Assembly: GCA_964036295.1 (NCBI GenBank)
Contig: OZ038462.1
Location: 29,784,855 to 29,848,854, forward strand
DNA from: Plumapathes pennacea
Taxonomy: Eukaryota > Cnidaria > Anthozoa > Antipatharia > Myriopathidae
Length of the DNA: 64,000 bases
Reading direction: 5' to 3'
The stretch's first letter is position 1; the number at the start of each line of letters is the position of its first letter. Positions 20,890 to 62,280 of the stretch are shown here, one piece after another. The notes beneath the pieces were generated by a model. It was not told where the DNA came from and ran no database searches. It saw only the letters and a list, made by a program, of their open reading frames with translations. The translations under genes were made by a program, and so were the position numbers.

Positions 20890-21737
20890 ATGTTGTGCCG
20901 TTTATACTTGCAAGTTTTTCTGTCTTCAATACTCATATTTGTGGTGAGCAGTGAGGTAGGAAGTCGCTTAAAGCCTCACATACTATTCGTTTTAGTCGAT
21001 GACTTGGGCTGGAGCGATGTCGGATTTCACGGATCAAAAATTCGCACTCCGAACGTGGACTCGTTGGCAAAGGACGGCGTTATTTTAGAGAATTATTATG
21101 TCCAGGCGTACTGTACACCGACCAGAGGTGCCTTGCTTACCGGAAGGTATCCTATTCATACAGGTGAGGGGTCATAAAATGTTGCGTTTTAGGTGCAGCC
21201 TCATGGGAGCCTCATTGGCACGCTACCCATCACGATCAGACTAAACGATCACTGCGACGACACCTCGCGCCTTGGTATCTCCCAAGTCTCACTTCCATCT
21301 CCTTAACAGTGTTTAACTAATTGTATTGCAGGGTATTTGATTTGGAAAAGGAGTGATTGCAAACTTTCGTTTCATTACTCCGTTTCAATACTCAATCGTG
21401 AAAACGGGAATGATTTGAATAAGTAGTTTGACATTGAATAAACGCTGCCTCGGGTGTCTTATGAATATTGTATTGATGCAATCTCACTAAGTCGAATTAC
21501 TCGCTGTTTTGACGCCGCGATTTGTACTAGTTCCGCGCGCCATCTTCAGGTTAGTCTACCAACATGGTTGTTCACTTGATTATTTCTATATACGTAGTAA
21601 GTTGTATTTCGTTTTTTTTTCTTGGGAGAGAGATTTGGATGTAATGGAATGCTAGTCCCTGTCAGTTGATTGGTTTTCTCGCCTGACAACAGTCTTAGGT
21701 TGCAAAATTATTCATTTTACTGAAATCTCCTAATATA

Positions 21738-21771
<34 letters not shown>

Positions 21772-39025: not shown

Positions 39026-42000
39026 ATGTCTGGCGAAATAAAGCTAAAGTGTTGGCAAAGATGTCCTAAAACAACCCTTGAAAAGCAGAAAACATCATTT
39101 ATTGCAAGCGGAAAGCTGCCTGATAACTTTTGGGTGGATCTCTTCGAAAGGAAATGCCCCGAAGGTGCGTATATGTACTAGATCAATATCTTGTGATCTC
39201 TCTCTGATTTCGTGAATGAATGAATTATAGACAAGTGAAACATCTGTAGTTGGCTTAGCTAATGTGCTGCGCTCAAAGGTCGTTGATTTGTCCCTCCGTG
39301 CACTGTTCCTCAAACAATGTACTGGCAGTCAAGTCCTCCTTATTGTATATTTTTAAATAATTTTAAGTATACTGAAAGAGAATACTGAAGTTGATCACTT
39401 TTGAGAGTTAAAAAGGGTAATGTGGAATTTTCTCCAAAGGGCTAACACTTGAAATGCAGCCATAACACTTTTTCAGCAGATCCATGTCAACCCAACGTTG
39501 ATGCATACAGCATTGTTTTACCAGAATGCTGACATATACCAAAACTATAGCTCTCGCTCAGAAACCAGCATTCTAATGTTTTTGTCGGTTCACAAGCCTT
39601 TGTGTAACCTTATTTGCTACATTCTCCTTCATCATGTTCCAGGATTGGGAGCAGTCAGTGAAAACCTCAAGAATGGTGGTTTCCTCACGGCAGAAGATTT
39701 TTTAGACCCTGACCAAAACACTACACAAATCCAGGAAGCCAATTCTGGAAAGAAAACCTTATACTCATGTAGTGGAGGTCAACAGGCCGATGAAAGTGTA
39801 GGTTTTAAAACTCCTTGTGCTAAAAGGAGGCAGAGTGTAATTGGGACACCATCTCTGTTTTCACAAGTGGAAGGATCTCAGTGTTCTCAAAATGTTGGTA
39901 CGTATCAGGCACCAATCAATTTTGAAACAGCAACATTCCCCACCCCACCCAGGGTGCAATGAAAAATATATATTTGGCAGCTAGCCCAATTCAACAGATT
40001 ACTAGCCATGACCATTGTCCGGAAAATTTGCCAGCCCAACAGGAAAGTCTGATAGTCCTCTATAGCAGAAGTGGATTTTCATTGCACCCCACCATCCCTC
40101 CCTGACTTACTATAAAGGTGTGACCACCCAAATGAAAGCTATCAGGAACACTCACATTATTGTAAATGTTGGGAGCTTAAACTTTTACCATGAGCTGCTA
40201 GAGGAACTTTTTTCAGGAGAAGCATTTATTTGTCCAATCAGATGCCATGAGGTATAGTGTACTGGCAGTACTGACTGCACACAATGCAACAGATACTGGA
40301 GATCATTTTTATGTTTTGCACTCTGTAGAACTCTGCTAATACAGAGCACTTCTTTCCTATTGACAACCAGATATTAGTAGTCTAATATCATTGGCTTTCA
40401 TGTGAGCAACATACATATGAAAGGAGAAATCAATGTTGATCACTCTCAGGAGTATAATAATATTATTATAATATTATTATAAGTTTTTAAACTTATAATA
40501 ATTAAAAGTTATTTATCCCTTGAAGATGAGGATGTCACAGACACATCAGATGTGTTCGACACTCCAGCTTCTCTGCTCAAAGCATCTGGCCATCACTTTG
40601 TTGGGTTTAACAAACTCAGCAGCCTCAATCCAGTTTCCCCTGATGATGGACCATGCACATCAAGTCCACAAAGATACACGAATGAAAAGTCAATGCTGCT
40701 GAGGACACCCACCCCAGATATTTTGGCAATGATGGTATATCTATGCAGTCAGTTTTTAAAGTTTATATGAATAATATGGCTTCCAGGAGACTATATTGAG
40801 ATGTTATACTGACCTATTAGCATGATATGATGCAAATGGTTATTTTTACACATTGTAGGAGTACTGTACTTTCCTGGAACCAATGTGCACTTTTGTAATG
40901 TTACATTGTTCCTTTTTTCTTGACTGTTTGGAAGTTTAGGGAAAATATTATGCCAGTATTTTCCAGACTTAACTGACTGAGCCATATTTTGGGTTTAGTC
41001 TTCACATAGGCCTTCTGTGAAGAGCTTGTCATACCTGTTGGCCGAGGATCTCAACGACGACACAACTGAATGGTCTGAGTCGATGGCCACACCGCCTCTG
41101 GAGTGGGACAATGATGCCAATGAAGTGGCTAAGGATGCAGAATGTGATGATAGCAAGGAACAAGCTCACAGTAAGGTCTGTCAACACTGATGTGTTCTTT
41201 CCAGTAAACGGAAGAAGAGGGGCAGGGATGTTTTAAAACATTTACAGTTGTATAAACGGCTTATGGTGGCCTAACGTTGTTCCTTTTTCTTTGACTCATT
41301 TTCTCAGCAGCATATTTTTGAGGTCTATACCCAGAGGTTGTTTCACTTGATGAAAATTCAACCGCCTTTATTCTCAACAGCCTGTTGCAAGGGTCTTGTT
41401 TTCTCGGGGCACGACCCGTGATTCTGTGAGCGACCTATCCATGACGTCACTGAAAACTCTGGAGGATACTGACGTTACTGGAATAGAAACCTGCAACCCG
41501 CTTTTTGATTCGCTCTACCGACTAGAAAACACTACAAAAGAAGAGGCTACCCTGAACCAAGAACAGCCGGAACTCCAAAGTGTTACTCCTAAAGAGACTT
41601 CCAGATTCATGCACACCTTAGCCCAGTCAACTCCCAAACCCGGCCCCGCACAACTAGACAGCAATCCTCTGCTCACAACGCCCCTCACTCGACCCAAGTC
41701 CTCGCCAGTTATTTTTAAGAAACGCCGCGGGACTGGTCACGACAGAGAGATTGACGTTTCCTTGGAAACTTTGTTGACGCCTTCGACCGAGAGGAGCTTG
41801 GTTCGAGCCGCCGAGGAGTTGTCCAACAGCAATGGTCACGTGGACGCGTGTGACGTAATGTTTGGGTCTCCTTGCCAGTCCTTCGAGCAAGCCATGGCTC
41901 TGGAGGCAGAAAAAGTGAACCAGGCGGAAGTGCCTGACTTAGGTTGGTGGTTGTGGTGTTGAAATAGAGTGTTCAGAGCCAAATAGGAATGGCTGGACTG

Positions 42001-45000
42001 ATCAGTAAAGTGTATGATGAATCGCCTAAGGGTAGATATGTGAAAGCTGGACGCCATTAAGATGTTTGAGCTGACGCTTCGAGCGCTAGCCCTTCGTCTG
42101 AGCAGGTTTTCCAGCTAACGCTCGAAACGTACAGTAAGCTTAAACATCATAAAGGCGTTCAGCTTTCACACATCGACCATTCCGAGTCGATTCATCATAC
42201 GTCTTTACTCCACGTCAACGCAGCCAAAAACCAGTTTTCTCAAATATAGCTTTCCATTGACCAGTAAAATGTTTCGGTTCAGGGAAGATATTTAGTCTCT
42301 CAAAGTTCATAGAGTTCTCACGAGAAAGTGTGAATATTTGCTCGTCTTTGATATTTCTGGTGTTTTCTTAACTTGTAGAATTCGGCTGGCAAAGGTGATC
42401 ATCTCCGGCCGCATAGGGATTTTTATTCCGAACAAGCATAATGACGAAGTAACCGATAGATACATTCTAGATACATTCGGATTTGTACTCCGAAGGTGTG
42501 GGTGAACGGTGGGTGTGGAGGTAGTAATAACAATGAAGAAACCTATTAAACGGCCAAGCAAAAGACACCAACCAGAGGCATTTACAAGGTAATCTTTATT
42601 GAAATAGTTATTTTACCTTTTAGCCTCCCCGGGGGATGTGATTTCACTGCAGCTCAGTAAAGAAACCACCGGACAAAGTAACGTACTGGTTCCGTCACTC
42701 TACAAAGGCGAGAATGCTTTCCCGGAGTGCAGAGAACAGCCGCTGGAGGAGACTTCACTGCGACGACCAAGTTCTCCTTGGAAGGCACCCGGACTGAGAC
42801 TGTCAAAAACGAAGCGATTCTCATATCCTGTCTTAAGTCGGGTCTACAAAGATGACGACAAGCGCTCACTGCAACTGTCTCTAGTGAATGAGAATGCGCT
42901 TGAAGTAGCCAGGACGACAAAGAGCGCGAGTTCGACTGTAGATTGCCATCAACAGAGCAAAGGCGGAAACGTTGTGAGTCAAGTATTGCAAACGTCTTAC
43001 GACCAAGATTCGGAGCCTGATGTGATACCCGCCGCGGTCAAGGAGTTAAGTGCATCTGGAGATCTCATGGAAAAGGAGATATCTACTTCTAAAAGGGACG
43101 ATAAAGGCAGCAGTTCCGTGGATGGTGAACGGTACTTCATGTCTAATCAGGAGGATCGAAGTCTAAGTCTAAAAGCGCGGAGAAAACTATCAACAGAGGA
43201 CGTTCCTCAGCCGAAAAGGCCAAAGATGGAGCGACAAGTTGAAATTCCTGGATGGAATCCGACAGAGATTCTCCAGAAGACGCGTGCAAGTCCAGCAAAC
43301 GATGGAAATCATTCCGCGGTTTCAGTTTTGGTCAAGGAAGAAACGTCAAATAATAGACCAGGGTCCGCAGTGTTGAGTACTACGGAAAATACATCTTGCG
43401 TGGGTTTTCGCACTGGGTCTGGCAACTTAATCACAGTTTCCGAAGAATCCTTAGAGAAAGCACGTAGTATCCTAATTGCAGCGCTTGAAGATGATGATGG
43501 AGGCGCTTCAGGTTGTTTTCCGATTAACTCCAGCAGCGCTAAAGACAAAAGAGCAGTGGAGCACGTGAACTTAGTCGATATGGATGATCTTACTCAGTTC
43601 CCAGATGAGTGTATGTCGCCCTCAAACACGTCTCATTTGACAAAAACAACAGTTTCCACATATAAAGCAAATTTACAAGCGCCACTAGAAGGCACTGTAG
43701 GACACTCTGGGGAACCCAGTAAGATTCATTATTCAGCTCGTGGAGGCGGGATGGTGCATGGACAAGGTGCACCGTCAGCAGATTTTAGCGAGAAACGTAC
43801 GGAGCACCTTCGACCCATTTCAAGGCGAGAATGCTGGACAGAAAGGTCTGGTCAAGAGGAGCACTATTTTACAAGTTCTTTCCAGGATGGTCTGACTCAA
43901 GTTGAAGTAAGCCCAACTCTGGCTGTCAATTTTGTTGGGTTCCACACTGCTGCGGGTAAAACCGTGCAGATCTCGGAGAAATCTCTCAAAAAAGCTAGAG
44001 GATTACTTCAGGATATTGAAGCTGATTTAGACAACAGAAATGTCGTTGGCAGCGAGAAGCAACAAAGTAGAACAATATCTGCTAAGGTCACGGATGCTAA
44101 CCCTGATGAAAACACTGCGAATGATGGCCGGTGTGAACAAGCCATCACTAGATGTGTTCATGTCGCGTCAGTGAATGATGAAAGTTGCAGTAGTAATGGA
44201 GGATATTCTCGCGAAGATGGCGTCCCAGACGTTTGCGGCTTTCAAACAGCGAATGGAAGAAAGATAGAGCTGTCCGAAGAAGCTTTAAAGAAAGCAACAG
44301 CAACCATGAAAGAGATGGGCGTTTCGTTAGGTCTTGATAATAGTGGTGATTCAGAGCTTTCCAAGCAAGTAGGGGCCGAAGTAAGCCGTACAACAGCAAC
44401 GAAATGGAAATCAGATTCGCCAGGAGTGCCTGAGGGGCGTAGGCATAGTGGAATTCCTTTTCAAGGTTTTCAAACCGCCAGTGGAAAGACAGTCAGAGTT
44501 TCAGAGAAAGCCCTGCAGAAAGCAAGAAAAACTATCAGTGAGATAGACCGGGAAATTATGCATTTACAACCAACTACCACTGAGACTCTTGTAAAGATGA
44601 AGAGGAAAGAGAGTAAAGAAACTGAAGAAGCTGTGGAGAATTTGACGATAAAACCCGAGAACGGCGACAACAAGCTGCGTCGGGGTGGTGCCAATAGGAG
44701 TGTCGTTACGGTAAGTTTGTCGTTGAGCCTCGAAGAGTAAATGTGTTTCTTGGCAACCAGTATTAACTTCCCGTATTATAACGTGCAGTTTCTTCAAGGA
44801 TGGAACGTTATCTACACGAGAGAAAGTAACACAGTGTCTCGGCTTGGTCAGTGAAAACTTTGTCGCTTTCTTTATTTCAGGAATGTAGGCCTGGTGGTGA
44901 AAGGAAAGAAGAAATACCGACAGAGACACTGGAAAAAGCAAATTTCATTGTCGATGCTACTGGAAGGATCTCTGATGGAGATAAAAAAACAAAGGGTTTC

Positions 45001-48000
45001 CATGGAACTCCTGGTACAGATGCGGATACGGCCGGTGTTGTTGAAGACGTGGAAGCCTTGACAGAGAGAATACAGCCTATGGAGGGTGTTGTGAATCAAG
45101 TAGTCAAAGCCACTGAAAAAGAGGGTGGAGATTACGACATAAAAGGGTTTTCTGTTGTTCAAACTACCAGAAGTACGGAAATTGATACTTTGGAAGAAGC
45201 TCTTATGGCTATGGATGGAATTGAACAAGAACTCTGCTGTGGTACACAAGACGTTTCGAAATATGGAAATACGGGCCTTGCACAGTCTGAAACTTCCAGC
45301 TGGAGGGAGGTTGGTGTTTCTGAAGGAAACAAAGGGAGAATGACAATGGGTAAGAATGAAGTTCAGGACGCTACACGACGTAAATATTTTCAAGGGGACG
45401 ACGTTGGAAGTGGTGACAAGATCGAAATTTCGAAAGATATGAAAGCTATATCAGCCATACATCAAAATATCAGAGACGTCCAAGGTGTTTCTGGCAAGAC
45501 AAATCACCAAGGAGGATGCGCAGGATTTGTGGGGTTTTACACTGCAAGTGGGAATCAAGTCAATATTTCTGAAGAAGCTTTCAAGAAAGCAAACGTGACG
45601 ATGCATGAAATTTACCAAGACCTTCAGAGCGTTAGACACGATGAGAGCACGCGGGAGGACAATTCTCTCTGCGCAGGTTTTCAGGCGGTGAGTGGCAAGA
45701 AGGTTGATATTTCTGAGATGGCGTTGAAGGAAGCAAAGACTGCTTTGAGTGAGATTGACTTGCATCTTCAGAACGAGCAGAAAATGGAGAAAGCAAGTAA
45801 GACTATGGATCGAATTGACGAGGAATTCCAATCTGGTGTCCAAAACGTTGAAGACAGAGGAACAGGCTTCACGGGATTTCAAGCTGCTAATGGGAAGAAA
45901 GTCGGCGTTTCCGAGGAAGCGTTAAAGAAAGCGAGGATAACTATCGACCAAATCGATCAAGATCTCCGTTCTGGCGTACAAAAGGCTGGAAATAAAGGCG
46001 ATTCGAGTTTCGCAGGATTTCAAACTACTAGTGGGAAGGAAGTCAGCGTTTCTGAAGAAGCGTTGAAGAAAGCGAGGATGACTATGGACCAAATTGACCA
46101 AAATCTTCATTCTGGCATACAAAAGGCTGGAAATAAAGGAGAATTGCATGGTTTCGCAGGGTTTCAAACTGCTAGTGGAAAGAAAGTAAACGTTTCTGAC
46201 GAAGCTTTAAAGAAAGCGAGGATAACTATGGACCGAATCGATCAAGATCTCCGTTCTGGCGTACAAAAGGTTGGAAATAAAGGCGATTCGAGTTTCGCAG
46301 GATTTCAAACTGCTAGTGGGAAGAAAGTCAGCGTTTCTGAAGAAGCGTTGAAGAAAGCGAGGATGACTATGGACCAAATTGACCAAAATCTTCATTCTGG
46401 CATACAAAAGGCTGGAAATAAAGGAGAATTGCATGGTTTCGCAGGGTTTCAAACTGCTAGTGGAAAAAAAGTAAGCGTTTCTGACGAAGCGTTAAAGAAA
46501 GCGAGGATGACTATGGATCGAATTGACCAAGATCTCCATTCTGGCGTACAAAACGCTGGAAATAAAAACGATTTGAATTTCGCAGGATTTCAAACTGCTA
46601 GTGGAAAGAATGTCAGAGTTTCTGAAGAAGCATTGAAGAAAGCGATGATGACCATGGATCAAATTGACCAAGATCTCCATTCTGGCGTACAAAAGGCTGG
46701 AAATAAAGGAGAATTGGGTTTTGCAAGATTTCAAACTGCTAGTGGAAAGAAAGTCAGCGTTTCTGACGAAGCATTGAAGAAAGCGATGATGACCATGGAT
46801 CAAATTGACCAAGATCTCCATTCTGGCGTACAAAAGGCTGGAAATAAAGGAGAATTGGGTTTTGCAGGATTTCAAGCTGCTAATGGAAAGAAAGTCAGTG
46901 TTTCTGAAGAAGCGTTAAAGAAAGCGATGATGACTATGGATCAAATTGACCAAGATCTCCATTCTGGCGTACAAAACGCTGGAAATAAAAACGATTTGAA
47001 TTTCGCAGGATTTCAAACTGCTAGTGGAAAGAAAGTCAGAGTTTCTGAAGAAGCATTGAAGAAAGCGAGGATGACTATGGATCAAATTGATCAAGACCTT
47101 CAATCTGGCGTACAAAAGGCTGGAAATAAAGGCGATTCGGGTTTCGCAGGATTTCAAACTGCTGGTGGGAAGAAAGTCAGCGTTTCTGAAGAAGCGTTAA
47201 AGAAAGCGAGGATGACTATGGACCAAATTGACCAAGATCTCCATTCTGGCGTACAAAATGCTGGAAATAAAGAAGAATTAGGTTTCGCAGGATTTCAAAC
47301 TGCTGGTGGGAAGAAAGTCAGCGTTTCTGAAGTAGCGTTAAAGAAAGCGAGGATGACTATGGATCAAATTGACCAAGATCTTCAATCTGGCGTACAAAAG
47401 GTTGGAAATAAAGGCGATTCGAGTTTCGCAGGGTTCCAAACTGCTAGCGGGAAGAAAGTCAGCGTTTTTGAAGAATCGTTACAGAAAGCGAGGATGACTA
47501 TGGACCAAATTGACCAAGATCTCCATTCTGGCGTACAAAAGGCTGCAAACAAAGGAGAATTGCATGATTTCGCAGGATTTCAAACTGCTGATGGGAAGAA
47601 AATCAGCGTTTCTGAAGAAGCATTGAAAAAAGCGAGGATGGCTATGGACCAAATTGACCAAGATCTCCATTCTGGCTTACGAAAGAATGGAAGTAAAGGA
47701 GAATTAGGTTTCACAGGATTTCAAACTGCTGGCGGGAAGAAGGTCAGCATTTCTGAGGAAGCATTGAAGAAGGCAAGGACGACCATGGATCAAATTGACC
47801 AAGATCTTCGTCGTTGTCGCGATAACGACGGAAATGCAGTCACTGTAGTTTGTCAGACTGAAGGTGAACAGAAGACAGATAGTTCTTTCAAGAAATCCAA
47901 CAGCAAAGTACAGGAGGTAGAGGTCAATTTCTCAGAAGACACTCCTCCAAGAAAGCAATTTACAACTTACCAGCAGAAGAACTCGAAAGTGACAAGTGAA

Positions 48001-51000
48001 AACTATGGTGCGTTTCAAACTGGAAGTGGACGCACGGTTCAAGTATCTGAAAAAGCACTCGAAAAGGCACGAGCCACATTAGATGAGATAGACAGATCTC
48101 TCGGCGAAGTAAACACATCAACTGACAACATACGTTTCGAGTGTAAGTCTTCACGTCTGGACAACTGCGAATCTGAAACGGCAGGCGACGTTACTCTTCA
48201 AGTCACACCAACTCCCTCCATGGCGCTCAGTATCAGTGACGATGTCGTGTCTAGAGAGATCCTCGAGAGCTCCAAAGCCTTGCTTGCTGATGAGTCTTTC
48301 CAGGAGTTTCTATCTACAAATAACTGCATCACTTCAACGCCCTGTTCTGCTGCAAAAACACCCCAGGCCGAAAGAACAAGTCGCAGCGAAGTTCATCTCC
48401 AAGCGCTGCCAACAGGTTGGTCTTGAATGTGATTGATTTTGATCCCGTTTACACCAGAGGGAATTGTACTGGATTTATGGTGCAGTAGGTTTTGGTGAAT
48501 CCGGGAAGGAAATTAATGCAGAAGCGAAACTCAAAATTTGAATACGAAAACCTCCTGTGTTCAAGATGGCTTTCAATTCTAAACGCACGAATTCAAAATA
48601 ATTCGCCCGAATGTGAACGTCAATTAATCCAGGGGCCATTTCAATAAAACATGTACAAGTGTATTTTACAAGTTGGGCCACTCTTTGCTCCAATACAATA
48701 GTCAATTACTGTTCAGTGCTGCTATCCATTTGAGACACGTATCTGTAACTTTTTACAGACTTTTGTCAGATCAAAGTCTAGAATAATGGCTCAATTTATA
48801 AAATACACGAGTAAATGTTTATGTAGAGGTGTAGACGTGTTGTTTTTCTTGCGAATCTGGAACTATTAAAGAAATGCAGCGCAACTCTAGCCTCTTGCGC
48901 ATATGCTCTGAGCTCGTCACACAAAGATTTCTCCCTCACGAACGTTTGTGGGGGAGGAATCTTTGTGTGACGAGCTCAGAGCGTCTGTGCAGGAGGCTAG
49001 CGCTACTCATGTTAGTGTAAAATTTGCCTTATGTGGCTGTTTGCTTTGTCGTGTCATGCCATGCTGTGCCATGCTGTGCTGTGCTTGTCTTATATTTCTT
49101 ATCCTGTCTTGTCCTCCGTTGTTTTGGTTTATTCCTTTATGTCTTATTCTAAGTTATGTTTGATTGACATTGTAAAATTCTGCTGATGTCCCAACTGATC
49201 CATCTGCATTGGTCTTTAGTAAGAACACCCCATGCGAGGAACATCCTACAGAGAAACTCAACACCGGTGAGTCGGGTGTCGTACTTTGTGAATCATATTC
49301 AAATCACTAGAGAGGTGTATTTTTTTTTTTTTTATTTAAACATATTTGGGCGTTTACCCCAAGAACTCATGGCTCATCGAGGGGGCTTACGTAGAGAGGT
49401 GTATGTCCTGTTCGCTTAATTTTGTTCGTCTCTTCATTTTGAGTACAATGTTTGAAATCATTCTGACACTCGCTTTGGTTTTGTGCGTCTAAAATCGCGA
49501 AGTTTCATCCCAAGGTGCAATAAGGTACTCTGGACATATCGCTGTATATGATGACTATCACTAGATTTCCGAGAAACCAATTGAAAATAACTGTGATCTT
49601 TATGGAGTTATACTGTACGTCTCATTTTCCCTGTTTGTTTGTTTTGTCAGTTCATAAGCCACGACGACACTTCTCGGGGTCAAGTCAAGCAAAGGTCGGA
49701 CATGAAAGCTATGAAGTCAACACCATCAGGTATTGATGACGCCCTGCTCTAATTCGTTCTCCATTTTCCCTGTTCTTGAAATGTCCTTTTCCTCCTTTTG
49801 CTCGTTTCCCTTTAATATATTTACCTCATTTTTTCCTCTTCCAGTTTTTTACTGTTTTTTTTTATGCCCTTGTGCTCCGCCCTGTCTCTTGTGGCTGCTT
49901 ATATTCCTTCGTGTTTCTTCATTCCTACCTCCTTATCATTCCTTTTCCTTTTTCTCCATCTTGTTAGTTTGTCTTCTGTAACCTCTTTCCCTTCGAATGG
50001 TTGTACTTCTTTACTCGCTTTCAAGTTCTTTAGAAATTCTTTTAAACACATCCGGACTGCAGGAGTACTGTATGACCGCCGTTCGTCAAGATTAAGTCTG
50101 CCTTTGACACCCCAGACCATCAACTCCGATACCAACGCAGGGCGCCCTTCAGCACGCACGTAAGTTACTCAACAAGAAACAATAATCACCGCTTGTTTGA
50201 ACGTGTCTACCTATGCATACTGAATGTATAATTTATCACAATATGATTATAAACCAAGGCAAACGGAACTGAATCGTACAGTAGTTGCGGTCCGCATAAT
50301 CACTTTTCGTATTATTATGGTTGATGGAAAATGTTCTATTTCAAACCATGAAAATTCAGCTCAAGATGACTGACGCAAAATCGTCCAAAAATAAAATAAA
50401 AAAGTCTGGTTACTTCCCGCTTCAAGGTGGAGTATCGGAACGTGTAGCAGGACTTGTCCTTATCTAAGTCTCCTCTTTTAGAGGGATCATCACCGGGAGC
50501 CGCGTCAGTAACGGATTCAGCAGAATGCACAGGAGCTCACGTCACGTGAGCGCAGGCCCCAGTCCTCGAGCGATCTCTCCTATCCAGACCTCGACATCAC
50601 GGAGCCCAGATATTCCTCGCAATGCAGTTCCACTCCCGAGAAGAGGTGTAACGCCATTCAGCAGCACCGCTGGGCGAAACGTTGGGATCCCGCGACCGCA
50701 TTTCTCAACTCCATATCGCAACAGTGAGAGGGGTAACCGGATGAATGGAGAAGTTTCGTCCGAGAGCGTTTCCCCCTCCGCAAAGAAGCCCAGACTCTCA
50801 GGGCCTCCTGGATTAATGTCGAGTGAGCATGGTGGTACATCTAATCACAAGTTAAAGGCAAGTCTATACCTATACCACTGAAGTCATTGCATTAATTATT
50901 AATTAATTATTAATTATTAAGAATTATTCTTACTTATATGTTGCTTTTATTCTATTACCAGATTCTTCTTAAATCGTACAACAGGTTTTAGCAACACCGC

Positions 51001-54000
51001 GGAAATTTAATAAATTTCCACTGGTTTGCCGTGGTGTGGACTCTTATTTACCACGGTTAATCGACCAATCAGAGGGCGAGAAACTAGTGTGTTGTGGTAA
51101 AAACATTTTTTTTTTCGGCCGAGCAGTCATATTATGTTTGAGTCAGCGGTCATTGCACAAAAACTATGGATTCAACTACATATTTTGAAATTCATAGTAA
51201 TGTTCATAAAACTTCAAAACTTAGCCAAGAAGCTCAATACTAGGTAGGACTCGATATTCAACTATAAGTTAGTTTAATGTATTTTGTGTAACATAAGGTA
51301 TGCACAAGAAGCTTGCACACGAGGTGAAATTTTACCTCGAGTTATAAGAAGTTAGATATTAATGTTGACGAACGCTGAACAACGGAGTGACGTCAGGAAC
51401 TTAGCACTGTACATTTCGACCAATGATATCAATGCTTTTCAGGGGTCGAGCAAAGTTAAGCCTCAGTTGGGCTTCCTGTTCAAATTACGTCAGCATCAAG
51501 GTCGGACTAGCCTACGCCAATACGTTGGAAATACTAAACCAGCGAGATACAGTAAAGAAGAAGTAAGTTATAAAGCCTATAGCCTATATGTGAACCATCG
51601 TTACTGATAGTTGAACATTGACGTTATCCTGGGTTGTATCTATACTTGCTGACGTGTATCTTCGTTCTTGCTTGGTGGCTTTTTAGCTCCGACACTCTCT
51701 CTACACACACAACATAAAAAGAAGCAGAACAAACAGTGACACAATATACACGTACTATGAACAACACATACTCCTCATTGCTCTGGATTATTTCACCCGG
51801 TTATCCATCCTCTTATCCGTCAGGCAGTCACTCACTCACTCACTCGATCACTCACCCACCCATTTAGTCATTTAGTCATTTCATCAAAATGTAGTCCATT
51901 ATTGTACTCTCTGAATTTCATTTATTTCTTTGTTTTTATTTTTTGTGTTTTTATTTTTTGTAAGCTTTATAATTTAGGGGTGAACAAGGAAGTGGTGGCT
52001 GTCACGTGTTCCAATGCAGCCTCGTTTCGGTTTGACGGAGCGAAGTACTTCAGTGACGATGTGCGCTCCACCAATCAGGGCACGAGGACTGAGGACGGGG
52101 GGCTGCTGCGGCTCGCTGCGGATGGCTGGCTTGGGCTGAACGAGATCCAGAGGTCAGAACTGCATGATAGCTCATTTCTTCAATTTCCAAACTTCCCGAC
52201 CCCTCCCCTGGTAAGTTCACTAATGACACGTCCTATCCCTTCCTTAGCGCCTTCCTCAGCACCCCAGGAGTGGAGCGCGGTCTCATAAGCGACGAATGGA
52301 TCGAGAATCACTACCGCTGGATTGTGTGGAAGCTGGCGGCAATGGAGGTCTCGTTCCCTTCGCATTTTGCTGGAAGGTAAAGTAGTAAGAGGAAACAGAG
52401 CTAAGACAAACATGAGTGACAGAGGCCCACAATGCGTGTACCCTAATGCCAACCGTTTTCCTACTATATAGGAAAACTGAATTCAAACTTCCATTTCCGT
52501 TTTTCGTTTTCCTCAAAAATCGGAAAACGAATTGAACTTCCCGATTCTCGTTTTCAATTTCTGATTTTTTTTTTTTGAGATTTTCGTTTCTCGCCAACCG
52601 GAAGAATGTTGGCACTTCCTGTCGCTTGAGAAGAAGATTAGTTTCTTTTGACCCAAAAGTGCTACTTACCTTTTTCATCGCGTGTGCTACAGCCGGCCGG
52701 CTTTGATTTGTTACCGGTATCATTTGCAAGTCCCAAAACATCAGATTAACTCTGTCTTAGTCTACTCTCGCCTGCAGCTATGAAGTGGCTTGTGTCCTCC
52801 ATTTGTGCAGGTGTCTTACGCCACACTGGATTCTGTGTCAGCTGAAGTATAGATATGACAGAGAAGTTGACCACAGTCACAGGTACCTTGCTGTCTTCTG
52901 TTTGTGTGTTTTCTTTCTGTTGATTCTAGTTTTGTCTCATTTGTTAGATGTCAAAACAGCAATGGGTTTATTCACCGCGTCATCCATTCTATCAGTCCGT
53001 CGGTCGCGCACTCACTGAATCACGCACGTACACACTCCCTCACTCCACTCACTCACTGCAGTACTTACTCGATCACTCACTTGCTCACCCAATCACTCAG
53101 TCACTCAGTCACTCCACTCAGTCACTCATTACTCACTCGGTTACTCACTTGCTCACTCACTCACTCACCCAAATTGCTCAGTCAGTCACTCGATCACTCG
53201 CTCATTCGTTCACTCACTCGATCATCGGTCACTCACTCCCGCCTTTAGTCACATTTGCCTTTCATAAACAGATCGTCTCTGAAGAAGATCCTAGAGCGCG
53301 ATGACGTGTCCACACGTACCATGGTGCTGTGCGTGTCTGGTGTGTGTGTTACAGAAGATACAAAGGAAGAGAGCGTGTCATCTGACGGCCAAACTGCTTC
53401 CAAACAAGAAGAGTTAGCGGGCGAGGTAAGAGGGGATACTCTGTGCCATAGTCCATCAATAGTTACTTATCACAATAAGCCACTTCTATGCTTATGCAGC
53501 GCAGTTGAGGTCACGGGACGATCAAACTTGGCAGGCAGAGTGAATATTAGTATGCATTATGTCCCTGGCAGAAACCGGCCGTTATTCAAGTCACTGACGG
53601 ATGGTATGACACGCGTGCTCTGTTGGACAAACCGCTGACAAGACTTTTGACTCAAGGCCGAATTCAAGTTGGACAAAAACTGTGTGTTTATGGGGCGGAT
53701 CTTGTTGGGTCGGACCAAGCTGTGTCCCCTTTGGAGGTAGAATGTACCGTTTTGTTGTTGTTGTTGTTGTTGTTTTGGGGGAGGGGGAGAGGGGAGTGTA
53801 TTTTGTGTACTGACATTAACCTGTAAGAGAAGCCCAAGCAGTACACATTGGCACAAACAAAATTTCCACATCTGAGGTGTACATTGCCTTTTTTTTATCT
53901 GCGTGTTTTAGCCTTTTAGCATAATGAACTCCAGTGCAATCCTTTCTTTTTTAGCAGCTTTTGCTTTCATCATGAGCAATCGAGACCGTATCTCTGATCA

Positions 54001-57000
54001 TTTTGGGCGAGGGAACATGTACGAATATCGCATTTCTAGTTTGTGCATAATCTTGAGACCTTTTTTGTTCCTACTTACATATGCATCCTGTGTTGTGGAT
54101 TCAGGCCCCGAGTTCACTGATGTTACGTTTTCACGCTAACTCCACTCGCCGTGCACGATGGGACGCCAGGCTGGGTCTACAGCGCCATGCGCATGCCTTC
54201 CCACTGAAACTGGCTTCTCTGTTTCCTGACGGTGGGCTCATTGGTTGCATTGATGTTATTGTTCTCAGGCAGTATCCACTTCAGGTAATGCAGTCAACGC
54301 ACAGCATTACTATCGATTTGTGACTTTCTCGTACAATCCTTTCTTCGTCAAGCATGGCTTTGTGGTCCAAATCACACATAAAACGTAAAAATTCGTGAAC
54401 TCTGCTCAATATCAACGTGGAGACTGCTATTGGAATGTACTCATTTAGAGCTTTCGTTTGAGTGGTCACACCTTTAGGTTTCATTTGAACGTTTAGGAGT
54501 TGCAAGTAAACACTGATGTTGCAAAAGTACTCATTGGGAGCTTTCATTTGAGTGGTCACACCTAAAGGTTTCACTTGACAGTTCAAGAGTTGGAAGTGAA
54601 CACTGCTATTACAATGGGCTTAGTTAGAGGTTTCGTTTGAACGATCACACGATTTTAGGGTGATCTATGAACGTAATAGAACAGTGTCTGGATGACTTTG
54701 TAAACCAAAACCAAACATAAACAACAGCGCACATCATGAAGGCTGCAAGAAAATACTTTCAATCCAACCAGAAACCAACGTAATTTGCGATTGGTTTTAC
54801 CTTGAAGAAGAGACCAATCAGCAGTTCGAGGACATGCCATCACTCAAAGAGCGTAGCAAACACAAAACCAAAGCAATCACACGATTTCTTTGGACAGTCA
54901 TCTGAAGAACGTTCTATCATAATGCAATGTAATGTAATAACATCTTGGGATAATTGCGTCTTTCTCACAGTGGATGGAGAAGATGCCTGACGGCTCGAAT
55001 GTGTTCAGGAGCCCGCGTGTCGAGGAGAGAGAAGCACAGCGGTTTGATCGTGAGCGACAGCGGAGAAGGGAGGCACTGTTCATGCGCGTTGAGCGGGAAT
55101 TTGAGAAAGAAAGCTCCCAGCCAGGTACGAAGTGGGTTACAAGATTACCATGTCATTTTTGCTATTTATTCTTTTGTAAGTTTATTGTTGTTTTTGTGAC
55201 AATGTCAAAATTATATGCAATCCTTGACCTTTAATTCAAAGAACCTGGGACTTATTATCCCAACACAGAATTGATAGTCTGACATTTTGAACCCAAGCGA
55301 AAGATCACTCAAATACTTCGCGTAACTGTAGAGCCCCCCACTGCTGGAGATAGGGGTGTTGGGGGGGGGGGGGGGGGGGGGGGCGATCTTGTTCTCCTGG
55401 GACTACCTTCTCGTCCTGGTGATTTTTTAAAGGAAACTTTGCGCTTACAGTTGCATTCCACGTTGCGAAATTTTGTGATGAGGGCACAGGAGTAATGTGA
55501 GATGTTTTGTTGTTGTTGTTGTTGTTGTTTTCAGAACTAGATAAGAAGAGAAAACGCAAAGGAGGTCAGCGGTCTTTTAACGCCAGTCAGATGGAAACCT
55601 TACGTGACGGCAGAGATATTCATGATGCTTTGAGCATGGCTTCCGACCCTGATGCGTTCATGGTAAGTTGGTTGAGTTGTATGATGTAAACTACTGATTT
55701 TTTTTTCTGTATTTTGTTCGTGACTTTCAGGGTTCTTTTCTGATGCGTTCATGATTTTTGGATCTGCTTAACTGCTGTGGCTTCATTTTGTCCATGGTTT
55801 GAGGGTTTTGTTTCTTATGCGTTGTTTTGCTTTTAACTTTTAGAGTGCTCTGGACGACGAGCAGCGAAAACTTTTGGACTGTTACACTTGCTCATTTCAT
55901 GAGAGTAGGCGCATGGAACTGCAGGCCAAGTTTGAGCAAGCGTGGAGCGAGCAGGAGGAGGTACTCAGAAGTGGAATAGAACGGTTTTCGATCGACTGCC
56001 GAAATAACTTGAGTATCAGGCCCTCCTCAAGGATAAAGGGGAGAGGGGACGGAAAACGAGCAAAAAACGAATTAGGGGGAGAGGGAAAAGGAGGGCTTCT
56101 CCTTTCCCCCTCCCCCATTTTGTTTTTCTTTTTTCCCCTCCCCTTCCCCTTAAAAGCCGGACACTCAGAGTACTGTCAAAAGTAATAGTGTGACTGCTTC
56201 GGTTAGGTGTTTACTGTGCTGTTTGATTGAATTGATTCAAACAAGTTTAGAAGCATTCTTGGCCAATCACGCAATCAAGCAAGTGGAGATGGCATTGTCT
56301 TGCACTGCTGATTTGTTTCTTCTTCGTGTTGTAATAGCAGTCGCAAATCACTTTGTTTTATGGTTTGTTAAGAGTGATTATTCGCAAATCACTTTGTTTT
56401 ATGGTTTGTTAAGAGTGATTATTCGCAAATCACTTTGTTTTATGGTTTGTTAAGAGTGATTATTCGCAAATCACTTTGTTTTATGGTTTGTTAAGAGTGA
56501 TTATTCGCAAATCACTTTGTTTTGTGGTTTGTTAAGAGTGATTATTCGCAAATCACTTTGTTTTGTGGTTTGTTAAGAGTGATTATTCGCAAATCACTTT
56601 GTTTTGTGGTTTGTTAAGAGTGATTATTCGCAAATTACTTAGTTTTATGGCTTGTTAAGAGTGATTATTCGCAAATCACTTTGTTTTGTGGTTTGTTAAG
56701 AGTGATTGTTTAGTGACTGAGGCTGTTATCTCTTTGGTTTTGGTTTCCAACTTCTGAAAGACGAACGAAAACCGCTATAAATCCAGAATAAGTGTAGTCA
56801 TTACCTCTGATTGATGCAGGAATTATGCAGGGATTTACCTTACGTTTTTGTTCTGTCTATATATGTTTGAATTGTGTCTGTGTTTACAGCACCAAACCGA
56901 GAGAAACGTTGTGGCGTTACTGAAAGTTCGGGTCGCTGACTATTGTAAAGACAGCGAAGAGCCAAAGAGTAAGTTTTTTATGACCCCCTCAGTTCCTCTC

Positions 57001-60000
57001 ACTGAATTTTGCTTGTGTCTTGTGCGTGGCCTACAGTCCGAGCGAGTGAATGGGTTTGTCTGTATTGATAGATTGTGGTTGTAATATAACGAATTCTCTT
57101 GCCAGTTGCGGTGTTAAGTGTGTGGCGGCCCAGTAAGGAAGTCATGTCGCTTCTGAGCGAGGGAGCCCGTTTGAAGATCTACCACGCGACAGCATCTGCC
57201 AGCAGGTAAAACCTCAATAACAGACAAAACTCTTGCTCTTATGTGATTTCAAAAGCTGGATTGGTTTATACTGCACAGAGGGCGGGGGCGGAAGAGGAGC
57301 TTTGGGCGCCCATATTCGAGAGAGGCGACTAAAGAGTTTGATAAACTATCAATGACTTTCTGAGATCCAAGATATTCTTCAGAGCCAAAGTTATGTGACT
57401 GGGAGGACATTGATTTACTGTACGGTGACTACATGACTATGTATACAAGGGGGAAGTTTCAGCCAATCCGATGTGGGGTGTGGTTTTGGTAGCAGAATTT
57501 TTACTGTATCTACAAGCGCGTTTTGGTGCATTGTGAACATTACGTCAACACGTTTTACGCTACTGTCTCTTACAACCGATCACCCGCCGTTGATATCATC
57601 TTGAGTATGACTAACCTTTCGCTGTCTTCCCTCACTTTCAAGGCACAGGCAGGGCACAGAGATACAGGTTAGTGTATCTCGCCATCTAGTGATGTAATCG
57701 TGTTACTCGTTCTTTGTTTGTGTTTATTGCTGTTGTTTTGTCAGCAAGGGACCGCATGAACTGAGTGTTTGCAGATCAGTGTTGTGATTAAATCGTCGCA
57801 CTCTGTCTTCCTGTAACATCTCTTTAAATGTATACCATTAGCTGTCGGGGACAAGAACGACTCGCTACCAAACTTTGCCAGTTGACCCGGGAGTGAAATG
57901 CAGGGTTTACAGCGAGAGAAAGGTGTGTTAATCACTTTACGCTGTACAGATATTTGTGTTGCATTATTCCACCTGGTCTGCACTTCGTGCCCAATATTTT
58001 TCTCGTTCATTCGCATCAAGTGAGGACTGGGGAGAGTATGCGAGCAACGAGCAACGAGAGGGTGTGAGAGTTTGTAGAAAGCGCAATGTTGCAATCCTGT
58101 GGATATCCGATACATTTAGGGACTGAGAGCGTGTTGGTCTGCGGCACTATTTTGTTTCTATATCCTGAGTTTTTACAACCAGTCACATCACGACTAAACC
58201 GACCAATCACATCACGACTGAACTGACCAATCACAGCAGCCGCCTGACCAGAGACGAAAATACCATCTTCACTTGACTCTGAAGACAACTACATCGTTTA
58301 GGTGGTCGAAACGTCAGTCACCAACAACAGCATTCATTCTGAAGACTACTGTCACCCGAAAGACAACACCAGACGGACAATATCCTGTTTTTGGTCCAAG
58401 TACTTCAGTTATTTATACTCATCTGTTTTTAGGTGAATTTTCAACAATAGGTCACGTGACCCAAAATTAACTACGTTAACGAGAATTCGTTTTTGAGTAC
58501 CATAAACGGAAAGAACATTTTAAAAAAAATATGTAGGATTTTAGGTATATAGCAGTAAATCACCAATCATTGGCAGCATTTTGAAGTTCAGAAAATTAAG
58601 AAGATTTGTATTGGAGAAGTTACTGGAGGGCAAGGCCTTGCACGTGATGTAAGCGGGATCTTTTTTAATTGCGGATTGGAAGAATTAATATGTTGTTAGT
58701 TGGAGCATTCTTTGATGCTAATCATAATATAGTCTTCTGCAACAATGTATCCAGAGCGCCTCATTACGTTTCTTACTTTCGTGCATTCTCTCCCAACCGG
58801 CAGACTACGTCATTCGGGATACTGACCCAGAAACTCCTCAGTCCTTATACGGAAGTCGATTTGGTCGGCGTCGTTGTCTTCTGTAGTCCTCAGACGCATT
58901 CAAGGTAAAGGCTACAGATTCCTGTCGAACATCATGTGGTTTACGTGTGGCTCTGAAATGGCCAATCATGCTACTTGGTTTTTATGACGTGATTTTATGT
59001 AGAAACAAAACCAAGCTCAGCAAAGAGATTTACTCGACAGACACTCGTTTATACGGAGCTAAAAGGACAGAACTATTTGATACTTACACTTGAAGTCACT
59101 AAACGGACTTTGAATTGACGAAAGTTTGTAAAATGTTACGGATACAAGTCTCAAGTACATAGCTGCAACAGTATTTGGCCAAGTGTGTTTTAACGTGCAG
59201 GGGACTGGTACAACTTGTAACATACACTTGGTAACGGAAGAATAGCTTCATGACAGATTGATTGGAATTTTCCATCGTTGAACGATCAAGGTCCAGTTGC
59301 ATAAAAGATTAACGCCCGGAACCAGACGTAAATAACAATAGAAGTATATTAATTTTCATTGTTATAAACGCCTAGTCCCGAGCGTTAATATTTTATGCAA
59401 CTGGGCCCAGGCTCCCTCAGATCTCCATGATAACAATATGTGTTCGTTTCTGCTCGCGTCCTTTTAGTGTGCAAACAGTGTATCTTGCTGACGAGGAACA
59501 GAACTTAGTCACCATCAAGTTTTGGGGAGGACTTAAGGTATGTGAAGATTGCAAATCAAGGTTTGCTTTTGTTCCTGATTGGCCAAGAATGCTGCCAAAC
59601 TTGGGCCAATCCAAAAGCGTAGCAAACGCAAAACCAAAGCGATCACACGATTCCTCTCGGCAGTCATCCGAAAACGGCTCTATGGAAACTAGTTTGTTGG
59701 TCTTGTTGTGCAAGTTATTTTCTCGATTTTACCTTTTTAAGGCGCATGCTCTGGAGGGTCTTGTGAAGCCGCGGTGCCTCGTGGCCAGCAGCAATCTCCT
59801 TGTGCGACCAGATGATCACGTGACGTACGCGTGCCTGACGTTTGGTGATCTGTCATGCCTCACCCTGAAACCACGTGATAGTCACCTACGCAGAGCACTT
59901 GAGACTTTACAGAGCTCCATTAAGGTACGTGCGCGGCGTATCCATTCAACGCACGTGGCTTATTCCACACCTATCTAATTCTGTTCGTTTCTTTAGAGTA

Positions 60001-60368
60001 TGGATGTCTTTATGGCTGAAATACAAGAAAAGCTGAATTCCGTCCTGCCAAAGGGCTTTCCTTTCGGGACAAAACAAACTGGCAGCCGTTCTCATGCTGT
60101 ATCACCGGAGACCCCAAAATTGGACCAGGAGGACTCCCCAGCGTCGAAAACGCTCAACTCTTCACGTGATACGGCTAAACTCACAGCCTCAGGCTCCCTC
60201 TCCCGCGGTATGAAATCGAGGCAGTGTAAGCGGAAGTTGTTGGAGGGCATTCCTGAGCCACCACCACTTTCACCGCTGACTTGCACTGTTTCAGCTGGCG
60301 CAAGGAAAGAATTTAAACGACCGAAGCGAGAGAGCGATGTGCATAAACATGAGGAGGACTTGGAGTGA
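39026..60368 (+). CDS. BRCA2: BRCA2 homologous-recombination mediator
   Basis: 29 exons: 39026-39164, 39643-39897, 40526-40734, 40999-41175, 41381-41942, 42624-44710, 44881-48415, 49220-49266, 49651-49729, 50063-50159, 50482-50857, 51443-51562, 51965-52152, 52248-52376, 52811-52882, 53272-53425, 53572-53736, 54105-54284, 54971-55124, 55535-55662, 55844-55960, 56890-56968, 57106-57205, 57643-57667, 57842-57924, 58755-58904, 59468-59537, 59742-59924, 59997-60368; about 3343 aa. The N-terminus has a PALB2-binding-like NFWVDLFE. Residues about 705-2220 hold 21 BRC repeats that bind RAD51. About 2520-3220 is the DNA-binding domain: helical ([13 protein letters not shown]), OB1, tower, OB2, OB3. 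The exon 25/26 junction is ambiguous and exon 11 uses a GC donor. The tail keeps PPPLSP but ends early. Confidence 0.95.
42012..42200. repeat. Inverted repeat with CTCGAAACGT motifs, BRCA2 intron 5
   Basis: GTATGATGAATCG at the left faces CGATTCATCATAC at the right, with a middle of two opposed GACGAAGGGCTAGCGCTCGAA-type strings. Such strings are typical of Penelope-like/retroelement tails, so this looks like two opposed tail copies. Confidence 0.5.
43392..44560 (+). repeat. BRCA2: BRC repeats 1-4 of BRCA2 (exon 6)
   Basis: Four divergent, well-spaced BRC units: [16 protein letters not shown] (about 43398), [16 protein letters not shown] (about 43932), [16 protein letters not shown] (about 44238) and [16 protein letters not shown] (about 44464). 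Each has the F-x-x-A/G, G-[KNR] and SEE/SEK-x-L..A layout of RAD51-binding repeats. Their divergence suggests they are older than the exon 7 array. Confidence 0.9.
45525..45768 (+). repeat. BRCA2: BRC repeats 5-6 of BRCA2 (exon 7)
   Basis: Units [16 protein letters not shown] (about 45534) and [16 protein letters not shown] (about 45678). The second has Val in place of the FxxA alanine. A further, badly degenerate unit may precede them near 45144. Confidence 0.85.
45868..47830 (+). repeat. BRCA2: Homogenised array of 14 BRC repeats (BRC 7-20)
   Basis: Units begin at 45868, 46009, 46153, 46294, 46438, 46579, 46720, 46861, 47002, 47143, 47284, 47425, 47569 and 47710, so spacing is always 141 or 144 bp (47 or 48 residues). 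Consensus core: [20 protein letters not shown], then [10 protein letters not shown] and a SGVQ.AGNK linker. Units are nearly identical at DNA level. The three 144-bp units differ by one extra codon in the linker (GELHG/GELHD). A two-unit 285-bp higher-order repeat is visible (46009-46293 resembles 46294-46578). Confidence 0.93.
48000..48105 (+). repeat. BRCA2: BRC repeat 21 of BRCA2
   Basis: A single divergent unit after the array: [19 protein letters not shown] then [11 protein letters not shown]. Gly replaces the FxxA alanine. Confidence 0.85.
48887..49000. repeat. Foldback MITE, BRCA2 intron 7
   Basis: Arms CTAGCCTC...CTCTGAGCTCGTCACACAAAGATT and their complement form a hairpin of about 50 bp per arm. 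No ORF. Confidence 0.75.
52978..53235 (+). repeat. TCAC-rich simple repeat, BRCA2 intron 15
   Basis: Degenerate (TCAC)n with CTCACTCACTCGATCACT words; ORFs through it are artefacts. A smaller tract is at 51832-51860 in intron 12. Confidence 0.85.
54690..54915. repeat. Dispersed intronic repeat, copy 4 (BRCA2 intron 18)
   Basis: AGAGCGTAGCAAACACAAAA, CCAAAGCAATCACACGATT and CAGTCATCTGAAGAAC match the family copies at 34255 and 59545. A left part in the opposite sense (GGATGACTTTG) suggests a foldback form. Confidence 0.6.
56341..56710 (+). repeat. 41-bp minisatellite, 9 copies, BRCA2 intron 21
   Basis: The unit TCGCAAATCACTTTG... recurs every 41 bp from 56341 to 56669 with few substitutions. 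Copies are directly adjacent with no spacers. Confidence 0.92.
58190..58385 (+). mobile_element. Penelope-like retroelement tail fragment, BRCA2 intron 25
   Basis: Contains CTGAAGA (58279-58285) and GTCGAAACGTCAGTC (58305-58319) followed by CACCCG, preceded by repeated GACCAATCACA words. These strings recur in Penelope-like element termini of cnidarians and resemble the conserved core of hammerhead ribozymes (CUGANGA...GAAAC). Assigned from memory of family patterns. Confidence 0.5.
59545..59670. repeat. Dispersed intronic repeat, copy 5 (BRCA2 intron 27)
   Basis: The cleanest copy: TTGGCCAAGAATGCTGCCAA, GGGCCAATCCAAAAGCG and AGCAAACGCAAAACCAAAGC, ending with CAGTCATCCGAAAAC. Confidence 0.65.
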
Positions 60369-60885: not shown

Positions 60886-62280
60886 ATGGCGACTGTTGAT
60901 TTGTTCGCCCGCACACATCACAGCTGGCGGCAGCTGGCGGTTCATTTCTTGTTGCTGTTTACGTTTTCTGGGACGTTCGGTCGGCTGAGAAACATGATTT
61001 GTAAGAATGGAAGAGCGATGCCGAATCTTCACGAAGCAGGTAAGACTTTACTTTTCACATACAGACAATCGCAATTTATTTAAATGCCTTCGAAGAAAAA
61101 GATGTTGTGCCCACAAGATTCGCTGCTTTATATTTTGTTGATCTGCATTGTAAGACTGTCATGAAAAACCACGGACGGACATCTTCATTCGTGAAATCGT
61201 GCCCTTAACTCTAAGCGTGCTCGTGTTATAAATCGGTTTGTTTAATTTGATATTGTACTATTAAAATGAATGTTTCTATAATATTTAAAATTTTTCCTTG
61301 CAGCCTTCGTTGGGGACATTCGCGAAGCCACTCAGGCGCTGGAAAATGGTCAAGTATGCATCCCAGCTATTGCACTGATCTGTACACAAGATAATGCAAA
61401 CCGCTTAATTTTACATACTTCAACGGGGGCAGGAAAAAGACGACTAACAGATCTTGTAGTTTAACTTAGATCATGTATAAAAGAACACGAAACCCACCCT
61501 TGAAGTCAGAATATAAATTCTCCCAACCACTCGAGAAGAAAATATGTACATAGCAATCATCTTATTTCTTGAGTCAACTCTCCCCATTTGTACTGTGTAA
61601 ATACTGAAGAAAAGAGAACACTGTTGACTTGATCACTAGCAGGATTTAAAGAATTTAAAGGGTAAACCAAAAGTCGTGTAAAAGTTAAATCAAAAGCCAT
61701 TTTAGTTTCCAGCACATTAAATGTCTTTATATGATTTAGATATGATAAAACACACATATATGATTTTCACAATTTATCTTTTTTGAGAATATAGCCATTG
61801 TCATCGTATTTGAAGAGGTACTGCATGCTCTAAGCGAGCTTATGCTTTTGTTTTGGTTAAAAATTTCCTCCCAGGGTGCAACATCACTTGATGACACCGG
61901 TACAACAGCCATGCACAAGGCTGCAGCTAATGGTCACCTGGACATCATTAAACTTCTCATCCAGCATGGAGGTGATCTCGATCAAGTGGATGTGACTGGA
62001 TGTTCACCGCTCCATGCGGGAGCTAGGAATGGCCACCTTGCATGTGTGACATACCTCGTGGAGCAGGGTGCCAACTTCAGGTTGAAGTCAAACAAAGGCA
62101 ACTCACCCATGAATGTGGCAAAGACAAATGCACAGCAGAAGGTTGCTGAATATCTGACTAACTGTGGTGAGTCTTTGAGAAAAATTAGGAAAGTGAATGA
62201 TTGAATTTTCACACATTCTGACATTGTGTTTGGAATTGTATTTTTCAGATAGAGAGAAGTTTGCTTGGGAAGTTGTGTGA
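60886..62280 (+). CDS. Small ankyrin-repeat protein
   Basis: Exons end/begin 61039, 61304-61353, 61875-62166 and 62249-62280, all in phase; 175 aa from the ATG at 60886. Ankyrin-like helices begin at MPNLHEAAFVGDI (ATG 61018), continue with TAMHKAAANGHLDIIKLLIQ and SPLHAGARNGHLACVTYLVE, and end with a partial repeat (SPMNVAKTNAQQKVAEYL). About three to four repeats fill the whole protein, so it is a scaffold or interaction protein of unknown partner. The stretch before 61018 is hydrophobic and ends with RLRNMICKNGRA; the start could instead be 60994 or 61018. AATAAA at 62353-62358. Confidence 0.8.

Follow-up and report, generated by a model that had tools for sequence, protein, structure and literature searches.

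Does a BRCA2 gene with 21 BRC units load RAD51 differently from one with few, or has its BRC region simply grown? Human BRCA2 has 8 BRC repeats, and the gene considered here lies in the window, i.e., the whole 64,000-nt stretch of DNA that was analysed. As a whole explanation of the locus, we favour with a probability of about 0.6 the combination of orthologue identity, tandem growth and a multivalent-chaperone mechanism.

Gene model and identity

Exon bounds were predicted from splice sites, with the boundaries picked by eye. The resulting model comprises the following parts.

39026..60368, + strand: complete BRCA2 coding sequence for 3326 aa in 29 exons, from the start to the stop codon
42624..44710, + strand: exon 6 with BRC units 1-4 (4 PF00634 stretches)
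44881..48415, + strand: exon 7, 3535 bp, with BRC units 5-21 (PF00634 stretches: 16 at E<=1e-3, 17 at E<=1)
51965..52882, + strand: exons 13-15, encoding the helical part of the DNA-binding domain (PF09169, 3 matches at 51962-52877)
53272..54284, + strand: exons 16-18, OB1 (PF09103, 3 matches at 53273-54185)
54971..59924, + strand: exons 19-28, Tower, OB2 and OB3 region (PF09104 (OB3) at 59736-59930; 1miu_A alignment)

In this splice-site model, 27 introns are of GT-AG type and one, after exon 11, is GC-AG. No internal stop is present and every junction is phase-consistent, including both sides of exons 6 and 7, which upholds the earlier view of an open array frame with matching phases rather than a pseudogene. 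The BRCA2 identity given in the preliminary description is likewise borne out, i.e., by Pfam matches to the BRC repeats and the DNA-binding domain and by the alignment of the spliced 658-aa DNA-binding domain with 1miu_A along positions 1-655 (E 4.1e-155). Here, the helical, OB1 and OB3 parts are recognised by Pfam and the Tower/OB2 part by the 1miu_A alignment. We also searched the genome (290 Mb, 24 contigs) with PF00634, PF09169, PF09103 and PF09104. All matches lie in the BRCA2 locus, at least 20 of them for PF00634 at E<=1e-3, and this four-family search of the 290-Mb, 24-contig genome found no second BRCA2 locus.

With regard to relationship, the DNA-binding domain shares 57-59% identity with four records of species that we take, by their names, to be stony corals and with one JGI contig; identity drops to 50% for a partial Stylophora record and to 44% for an octocoral, which fits the anthozoan relationship proposed before. 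Judged from these data, the locus almost certainly encodes a functional orthologue of BRCA2 in a coral-like (hexacoral) animal, and its BRC region grew as a 47-aa unit was duplicated in tandem and in frame.

Number of BRC units

We count 21 BRC units between 43403 and 48102. Exon 6 holds four, while exon 7 holds two, a tandem array of 14 and a final one. The units and their remnants are as follows.

43403..43495, + strand: BRC unit 1 (FRTG), Pfam and unit table
43937..44029, + strand: BRC unit 2 (FHTA), Pfam and unit table
44237..44329, + strand: BRC unit 3 (FQTA), Pfam and unit table
44465..44557, + strand: BRC unit 4 (FQTA), Pfam and unit table
45187..45279, + strand: decayed BRC unit without usable FxxA half (47-aa array-unit profile, score 16.4; best of 200 shuffles 2.3)
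45532..45624, + strand: BRC unit 5 (FYTA), Pfam and unit table
45676..45768, + strand: BRC unit 6 (FQAV), Pfam at E<=1 and unit table
45775..45861, + strand: headless BRC unit reduced to its second half and linker (score 24.3; best of 200 shuffles 2.3)
45874..47808, + strand: tandem array, BRC units 7-20 (14 units), TRF and unit table, 141/144-bp steps
48010..48102, + strand: BRC unit 21 (FQTG), Pfam and unit table

With PF00634, the exon-6 ORF has 4 stretches and the exon-7 ORF has 17 at E<=1 (total 21), or 4 and 16 at E<=1e-3 (total 20). An in-house BRC profile, seeded with the units of this BRCA2 itself, also yields 21 here and none in reversed copies of 338 proteins. The roughly 21 units (4 + 2 + 14 + 1) named in the preliminary description are thus recovered by both profiles, and the span it assigned, 43392-48105, encloses them all. 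The 21 units, combined into a profile, match BRC4 of 1n0w_B over positions 1-26 (E 3.5e-06). The strict FxxA motif is present in 17/21 units, the alanine being replaced by G, V, T or G in the other four; 13/14 array units keep it, unit 8 (FQTT) being the sole one without the alanine.

By eye, the decayed unit at 45187..45279 reaches back to 45145 (GFSVVQ...). The stretch 45292-45351 was dropped as a BRC unit (score 3.1, near the shuffle maximum of 2.3). Matches of DUF421, DUF6468, SOAR and SNRNP27 on exon 7 were set aside as low-scoring echoes of the repeats, with 0 stretches of their own at E<=1e-3.

The count had been thought exceptional, with about 15 in trypanosomes as the highest number in print. 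The latter holds in the literature seen, where a T. brucei study gives 15 predicted repeats, but the former does not. More than 21 units are found in 19/337 homologues among the matches listed (in-house profile; 6 of the 19 are amphioxus records) and in 5/15 homologues scanned with Pfam, which rules out 21 as a record. These 337 homologues headed the lists of three similarity searches and are not an animal sample; their gene models were taken as deposited. In-house counts (e.g., Owenia 38, amphioxus up to 30, Rhopilema 23) lie above those of Pfam in most proteins compared (Owenia 38 vs 25, Mercenaria 24 vs 13, Stylophora 13 vs 3). Among cnidarians, Rhopilema (23) exceeds this BRCA2 by profile, while in the Pfam scan of 9 cnidarian-like proteins the BRCA2 studied here ranks first (Rhopilema 19, Hydra 15). 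The wider animal count corrects the impression of about 15 as a ceiling.

Growth of the array and selection on its units

TRF reports the array at 45874-47807 with period 141, 13.7 copies and 87% matches. Each of the 13 steps between its 14 units measures 141 or 144 bp, and the reading frame is therefore kept in all array units. A repeat unit of 47 aa consists of a 31-aa BRC core and a linker of roughly 16 aa. At the DNA level the units are 80-98% alike, the last one excepted, and similarity peaks at lag 2 (mean 90.8%, vs 87.9% at lag 1). Within the protein, 17/21 units are nearer to another unit of their own than to any in the proteins of 14 other species; the 14 array units show 87-97% self vs 58-65% other, in a comparison set that holds no close relative and with a large pS (0.25). 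The array probably grew via unequal crossing-over, partly in a two-unit register. Cores show more silent divergence than linkers do (p 0.0058), an excess that simple duplication does not explain.

Across the 14 array units, pN/pS is 0.20 for the BRC core (column bootstrap 0.12-0.34) and 1.30 for the linker (0.55-5.8), with the odd tail of unit 20 dropped; kept as linker, the tail changes these values to 0.16 and 1.07. Core and linker differ in pN with a permutation p of 0.0078, although such column tests, like the Fisher test below, overstate the independent evidence since the array units share ancestry. The ratios indicate that the BRC cores are under purifying selection and that the linkers are without such constraint.

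The second (LFDE-type) motif and the RAD51 pocket

At the position of LFDE in human BRC4, the array units carry TMDQ-like residues. The fourth position is acidic in 0/14 array units and in 6/7 of the others (Fisher p 1.3e-4). Over all 21 units, the first hydrophobic residue is found in 2/21, the second in 21/21 and the acid at the last position in 6/21; in their LFDE part the array units, although BRC repeats, thus depart from the BRC4 type. The RAD51 of the same genome has Leu at human Tyr205 and Thr at human Met251 and is otherwise nearly identical to human (163 aa). In the structural literature, both human residues line the LFDE pocket, Leishmania RAD51 has Leu and Ser at the matching positions and a shallower pocket, and Leishmania BRC1 binds RAD51 without the LFDE contact. 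The new detail is that the array keeps FxxA and loses the LFDE-like tetrad, alongside a change of the RAD51 pocket. Leu205/Thr251 may be ordinary in invertebrates, the comparison here being with human.

The change at the LFDE position is not tied to repeat number, because the named stony corals with few repeats are also poor in acids there (3/10, 3/9 and 2/15). Acids are found in 0/23 units of Rhopilema and 16/16 of Hydra, i.e., large arrays exist with either state. We consider it unlikely that the BRCA2-RAD51 contact was rebuilt on both sides, such that the pocket changed, the array lost the tetrad and many serial FxxA-only sites took the place of a few strong two-point sites. If true, the kinetoplastid binding mode would have a parallel in an animal, with affinity traded for avidity. 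The paired change of RAD51 pocket and BRC tetrad offers a concrete co-evolution hypothesis.

RAD51 loading and alternative explanations

We lean slightly towards BRCA2 acting as a multivalent RAD51 chaperone with FxxA-led, avidity-based loading, where we infer binding, affinity, cluster size and loading from sequence. Each unit would hold one RAD51 monomer, mainly via an FxxA hairpin that would mimic RAD51's own FTTA contact (the RAD51 of this genome has the FTTA motif). The second contact of the array units would be weak, with the matching pocket altered, such that loading would rely on many moderate, close sites, i.e., avidity, rather than on few strong ones. The DNA-binding domain would then carry the RAD51 cluster to single-stranded DNA. 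A human BRCA2 paper describes the repeat number as overspecified, which counts against an avidity mechanism.

As an alternative, duplication may act as a neutral ratchet that adds units while selection only prevents harmful or misfolded cores and unit number barely affects RAD51 loading. Animals repeatedly show arrays that differ in the length and number of their units, linkers are unconstrained, decayed units flank the array, and a mouse with one BRC repeat is reportedly viable. The core pN/pS of 0.20 over 14 units nevertheless implies that most units were kept working, and fewer repeats reportedly impaired recombination and RAD51 localisation in T. brucei. On the earlier suggestion that so many units would alter RAD51 loading stoichiometry, the mouse and T. 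brucei results lean in opposite directions. We regard the ratchet as possible but less probable than the multivalent chaperone.

A second alternative is that only part of the array is translated, exon 7 or its array being skipped or internally spliced in most transcripts. Joint skipping of exons 6 and 7 (5622 bp, a multiple of 3) would keep the frame, but skipping of exon 7 (3535 bp, remainder 1) or exon 6 (2087 bp, remainder 2) alone breaks it, and the fully open frame and constrained cores of the array make such partial translation very improbable. Least probable of all is an array inflated by the assembly: tandem arrays are a known risk, and in T. brucei mapping found 11 repeats against 15 expected from the genome sequence, but here no two units are identical (at most 98%), misassembly is unlikely because the longest exact repeat is only 142 bp, short for long reads, and the 24-contig genome suggests that long reads were used.

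Comparison with known systems

Expanded BRC arrays are already known as a kind, and this BRCA2 adds another case. A 2026 preprint describes the reason why BRCA2 needs several BRC repeats as unresolved. Animals with long, core-constrained arrays and relatives with 6-12 repeats are natural material on repeat number vs RAD51 cluster size. Our literature search returned nothing on BRC repeats in cnidarians, amphioxus, or Hydra plus sponge, and for coral only an unrelated match.

The stony-coral BRCA2 proteins (Montipora, Acropora, Porites, Oculina) share the domain order and have DNA-binding domains 57-58% identical to the one studied here; likewise, their FxxA units have few acids at the fourth LFDE position. 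Their unit counts are lower, with 10 in Montipora, 9 in Acropora and 15 in Porites by profile (7, 6 and 12 by Pfam), the Oculina record being partial (3 units). Tandem BRC arrays together with helical and OB domains are also found in Owenia fusiformis, Branchiostoma, Strongylocentrotus purpuratus, Macrosteles, Rhopilema and Hydra, with profile counts of 38, 28-30, 27, 26, 23 and 16, respectively. Unit length differs as well: Owenia and Macrosteles have units of 33 aa, the sea urchin of 38 and both Rhopilema and Hydra of 41, compared to 47 here.

In the D. pseudoobscura group, Drosophila brca2 varies within and between species from 3 to 11 repeats, in contrast to 21 here, and unequal crossing-over has been proposed. 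In T. brucei BRCA2, near-identical BRC repeats likewise stand in tandem, and their array has been described as a recent expansion that matters for recombination. The paper that predicted 15 virtually identical units put the mapped number at 11 for each allele of that strain and at no more than 12 elsewhere, while the array here brings the count to 21, in an animal. As in the RAD51 of this genome, the LFDE pocket is reportedly altered in kinetoplastid (Leishmania) RAD51.

Gene structure and repeat layout

The window holds the following features (forward-strand coordinates).

14484-15071, THAP-domain open frame (PF05485)
20776-22722, sulfatase gene exons (PF00884)
39026-60368, + strand, predicted BRCA2 model
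42608-44737 and 44830-48423, the two long open frames of the BRC region
45187-45279, decayed BRC unit (score 16.4, the best of 200 shuffles reaching 2.3)
45775-45861, decayed BRC unit (score 24.3, the best of 200 shuffles again reaching 2.3)
45874-47808, array of 14 BRC units
61764-62201, ankyrin-repeat open frame, closely downstream of BRCA2

The BRCA2 model comprises 29 exons encoding a 3326-aa product. It contains no internal stop and phases agree at every exon junction, i.e., the open frame and matching phases of the preliminary description hold. Introns are GT-AG (27) or GC-AG (one, after exon 11, 50857-50858). Exon by exon, the gene matches the helical, OB1 and OB3 families, and its spliced DNA-binding domain aligns to 1miu_A over residues 1-655 of 658 (E 4.1e-155). 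Within the whole 290-Mb, 24-contig genome, we found neither a second locus for these three families nor BRC repeats outside the BRCA2 locus. The intron between exons 21 and 22 carries 9.0 tandem copies of a 41-bp unit (97% matches, 56341-56707), and the one following exon 7 a long near-perfect inverted repeat identified by eye (48910-48985), perhaps a foldback element.

The PF00634 search proposed earlier yields 21 BRC repeats at E<=1 (4 and 17 in the first and second long frame, respectively) and 20 at E<=1e-3 (4 and 16); our in-house profile also reports 21. The layout described before is recovered in the unit table, i.e., four dispersed units in exon 6 and, in exon 7, two units followed by the 14-unit array and a final one. 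Array units are spaced by 141 or 144 bp, none are identical (closest pair 98%), and the longest exact repeat spans 142 bp. Skipping exon 7 alone (3535 bp, remainder 1) would shift the frame, while joint skipping of exons 6 and 7 would keep it. The BRC array is real, intact and long.

Origin and constraint of the array

The closest unit lies within the same protein for 17/21 units when compared with the proteins of 14 other species; the best self match of array units is 87-97% vs. 58-65% to those species. Identity peaks at lag 2 (90.8% vs. 87.9% at lag 1), which suggests two-unit steps. Both decayed units are located closely upstream of the array, such that BRC units were lost as well as gained.

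Among the 14 array units, pN/pS is 0.20 for the BRC cores (bootstrap 0.12-0.34) and 1.30 for the linkers (0.55-5.8), intervals that are optimistic because the units share kinship. The pN difference between both is significant (permutation p 0.0078). Silent divergence is higher in cores than in linkers (pS 0.33 vs. 0.11, permutation p 0.0058).

Comparison with other BRCA2 proteins

The DNA-binding domain shows 57-58% identity to Montipora, Acropora, Porites and Oculina, which we take to be stony corals, 59% to a JGI contig record, 50% to an incomplete Stylophora record and 44% to Dendronephthya, an octocoral. The four former share 64-75% pairwise identity in the comparisons made. Judged by sequence, this BRCA2 would belong to a hexacoral that falls outside the sampled stony corals.

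The repeat number had been considered exceptional, which does not hold: by the in-house profile, 19 of the 337 fetched homologues (similarity-ranked top lists) exceed 21 units and four equal it.

Homologues with more than 21 BRC units (in-house profile)
Owenia fusiformis: 38
Amphioxus, six records: 22-30
Strongylocentrotus purpuratus: 27
Macrosteles: 26
Lytechinus pictus: 24
Mercenaria: 24
Ruditapes, Mactra, Rhopilema: 23 each
Five further records: 22-29

This is also reflected by Pfam (E<=1e-3), where 5/15 homologues, picked for high counts or as cnidarians, surpass the window's 20 (27, 25, 25, 25, 24), the other ten showing 3-19. The Owenia (P0123, 2293-3316) and Macrosteles (P0149, 289-914) arrays have a period of 33 aa, i.e., BRC cores with almost no linker. 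Long BRC arrays are widespread among animals and little noted. Published work lists 15 predicted (11-12 mapped) repeats for T. brucei, 14 for Trichomonas, 10 for Anopheles and up to 11 for Drosophila; the literature on BRC repeats, as far as searched, gave no report of these animal arrays.

RAD51 contact

According to published work, BRC4 contacts RAD51 via FxxA and LFDE, and human BRCA2 is proposed to use its BRC repeats to hand over an already assembled RAD51 nucleus, the repeat number being called overspecified. Aligned to BRC4, 13/14 array units keep FxxA, while the LFDE positions read TMDQ in 10/14; an acid at the fourth position is found in none of the 14 vs. 6/7 units outside the array. 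Hydra (P0304) and Hydractinia (P0326) arrays show FQTG or FQTC where FxxA is expected (strict FxxA 0/16 in Hydra), and sea urchin (P0126) has strict FxxA in 10/27, its array units being FQTG. For Leishmania BRC1, an about threefold affinity loss is reported upon an A-to-G change.

RAD51 is encoded elsewhere in this genome (C8, at about 3.33 Mb) and carries its own FTTA motif. Over 163 aa it is nearly identical to human RAD51, but Leu stands in place of human Tyr205 and Thr in place of human Met251. From these sequences, RAD51 binding may be FxxA-led, through many moderate sites. This reading is weakened because few-repeat stony corals also rarely have an acid at the fourth LFDE position and because large arrays exist both without (Rhopilema) and with acids (Hydra). 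The array is noteworthy for its constrained cores and for a RAD51 change paired with a BRC change. Our pocket comparison covers this genome, human and Leishmania. For the latter, published work describes a shallower pocket and a BRC1 that binds tightly without the LFDE contact; both its RAD51 and the one found here have Leu at human position 205, while position 251 is Ser in Leishmania and Thr here.
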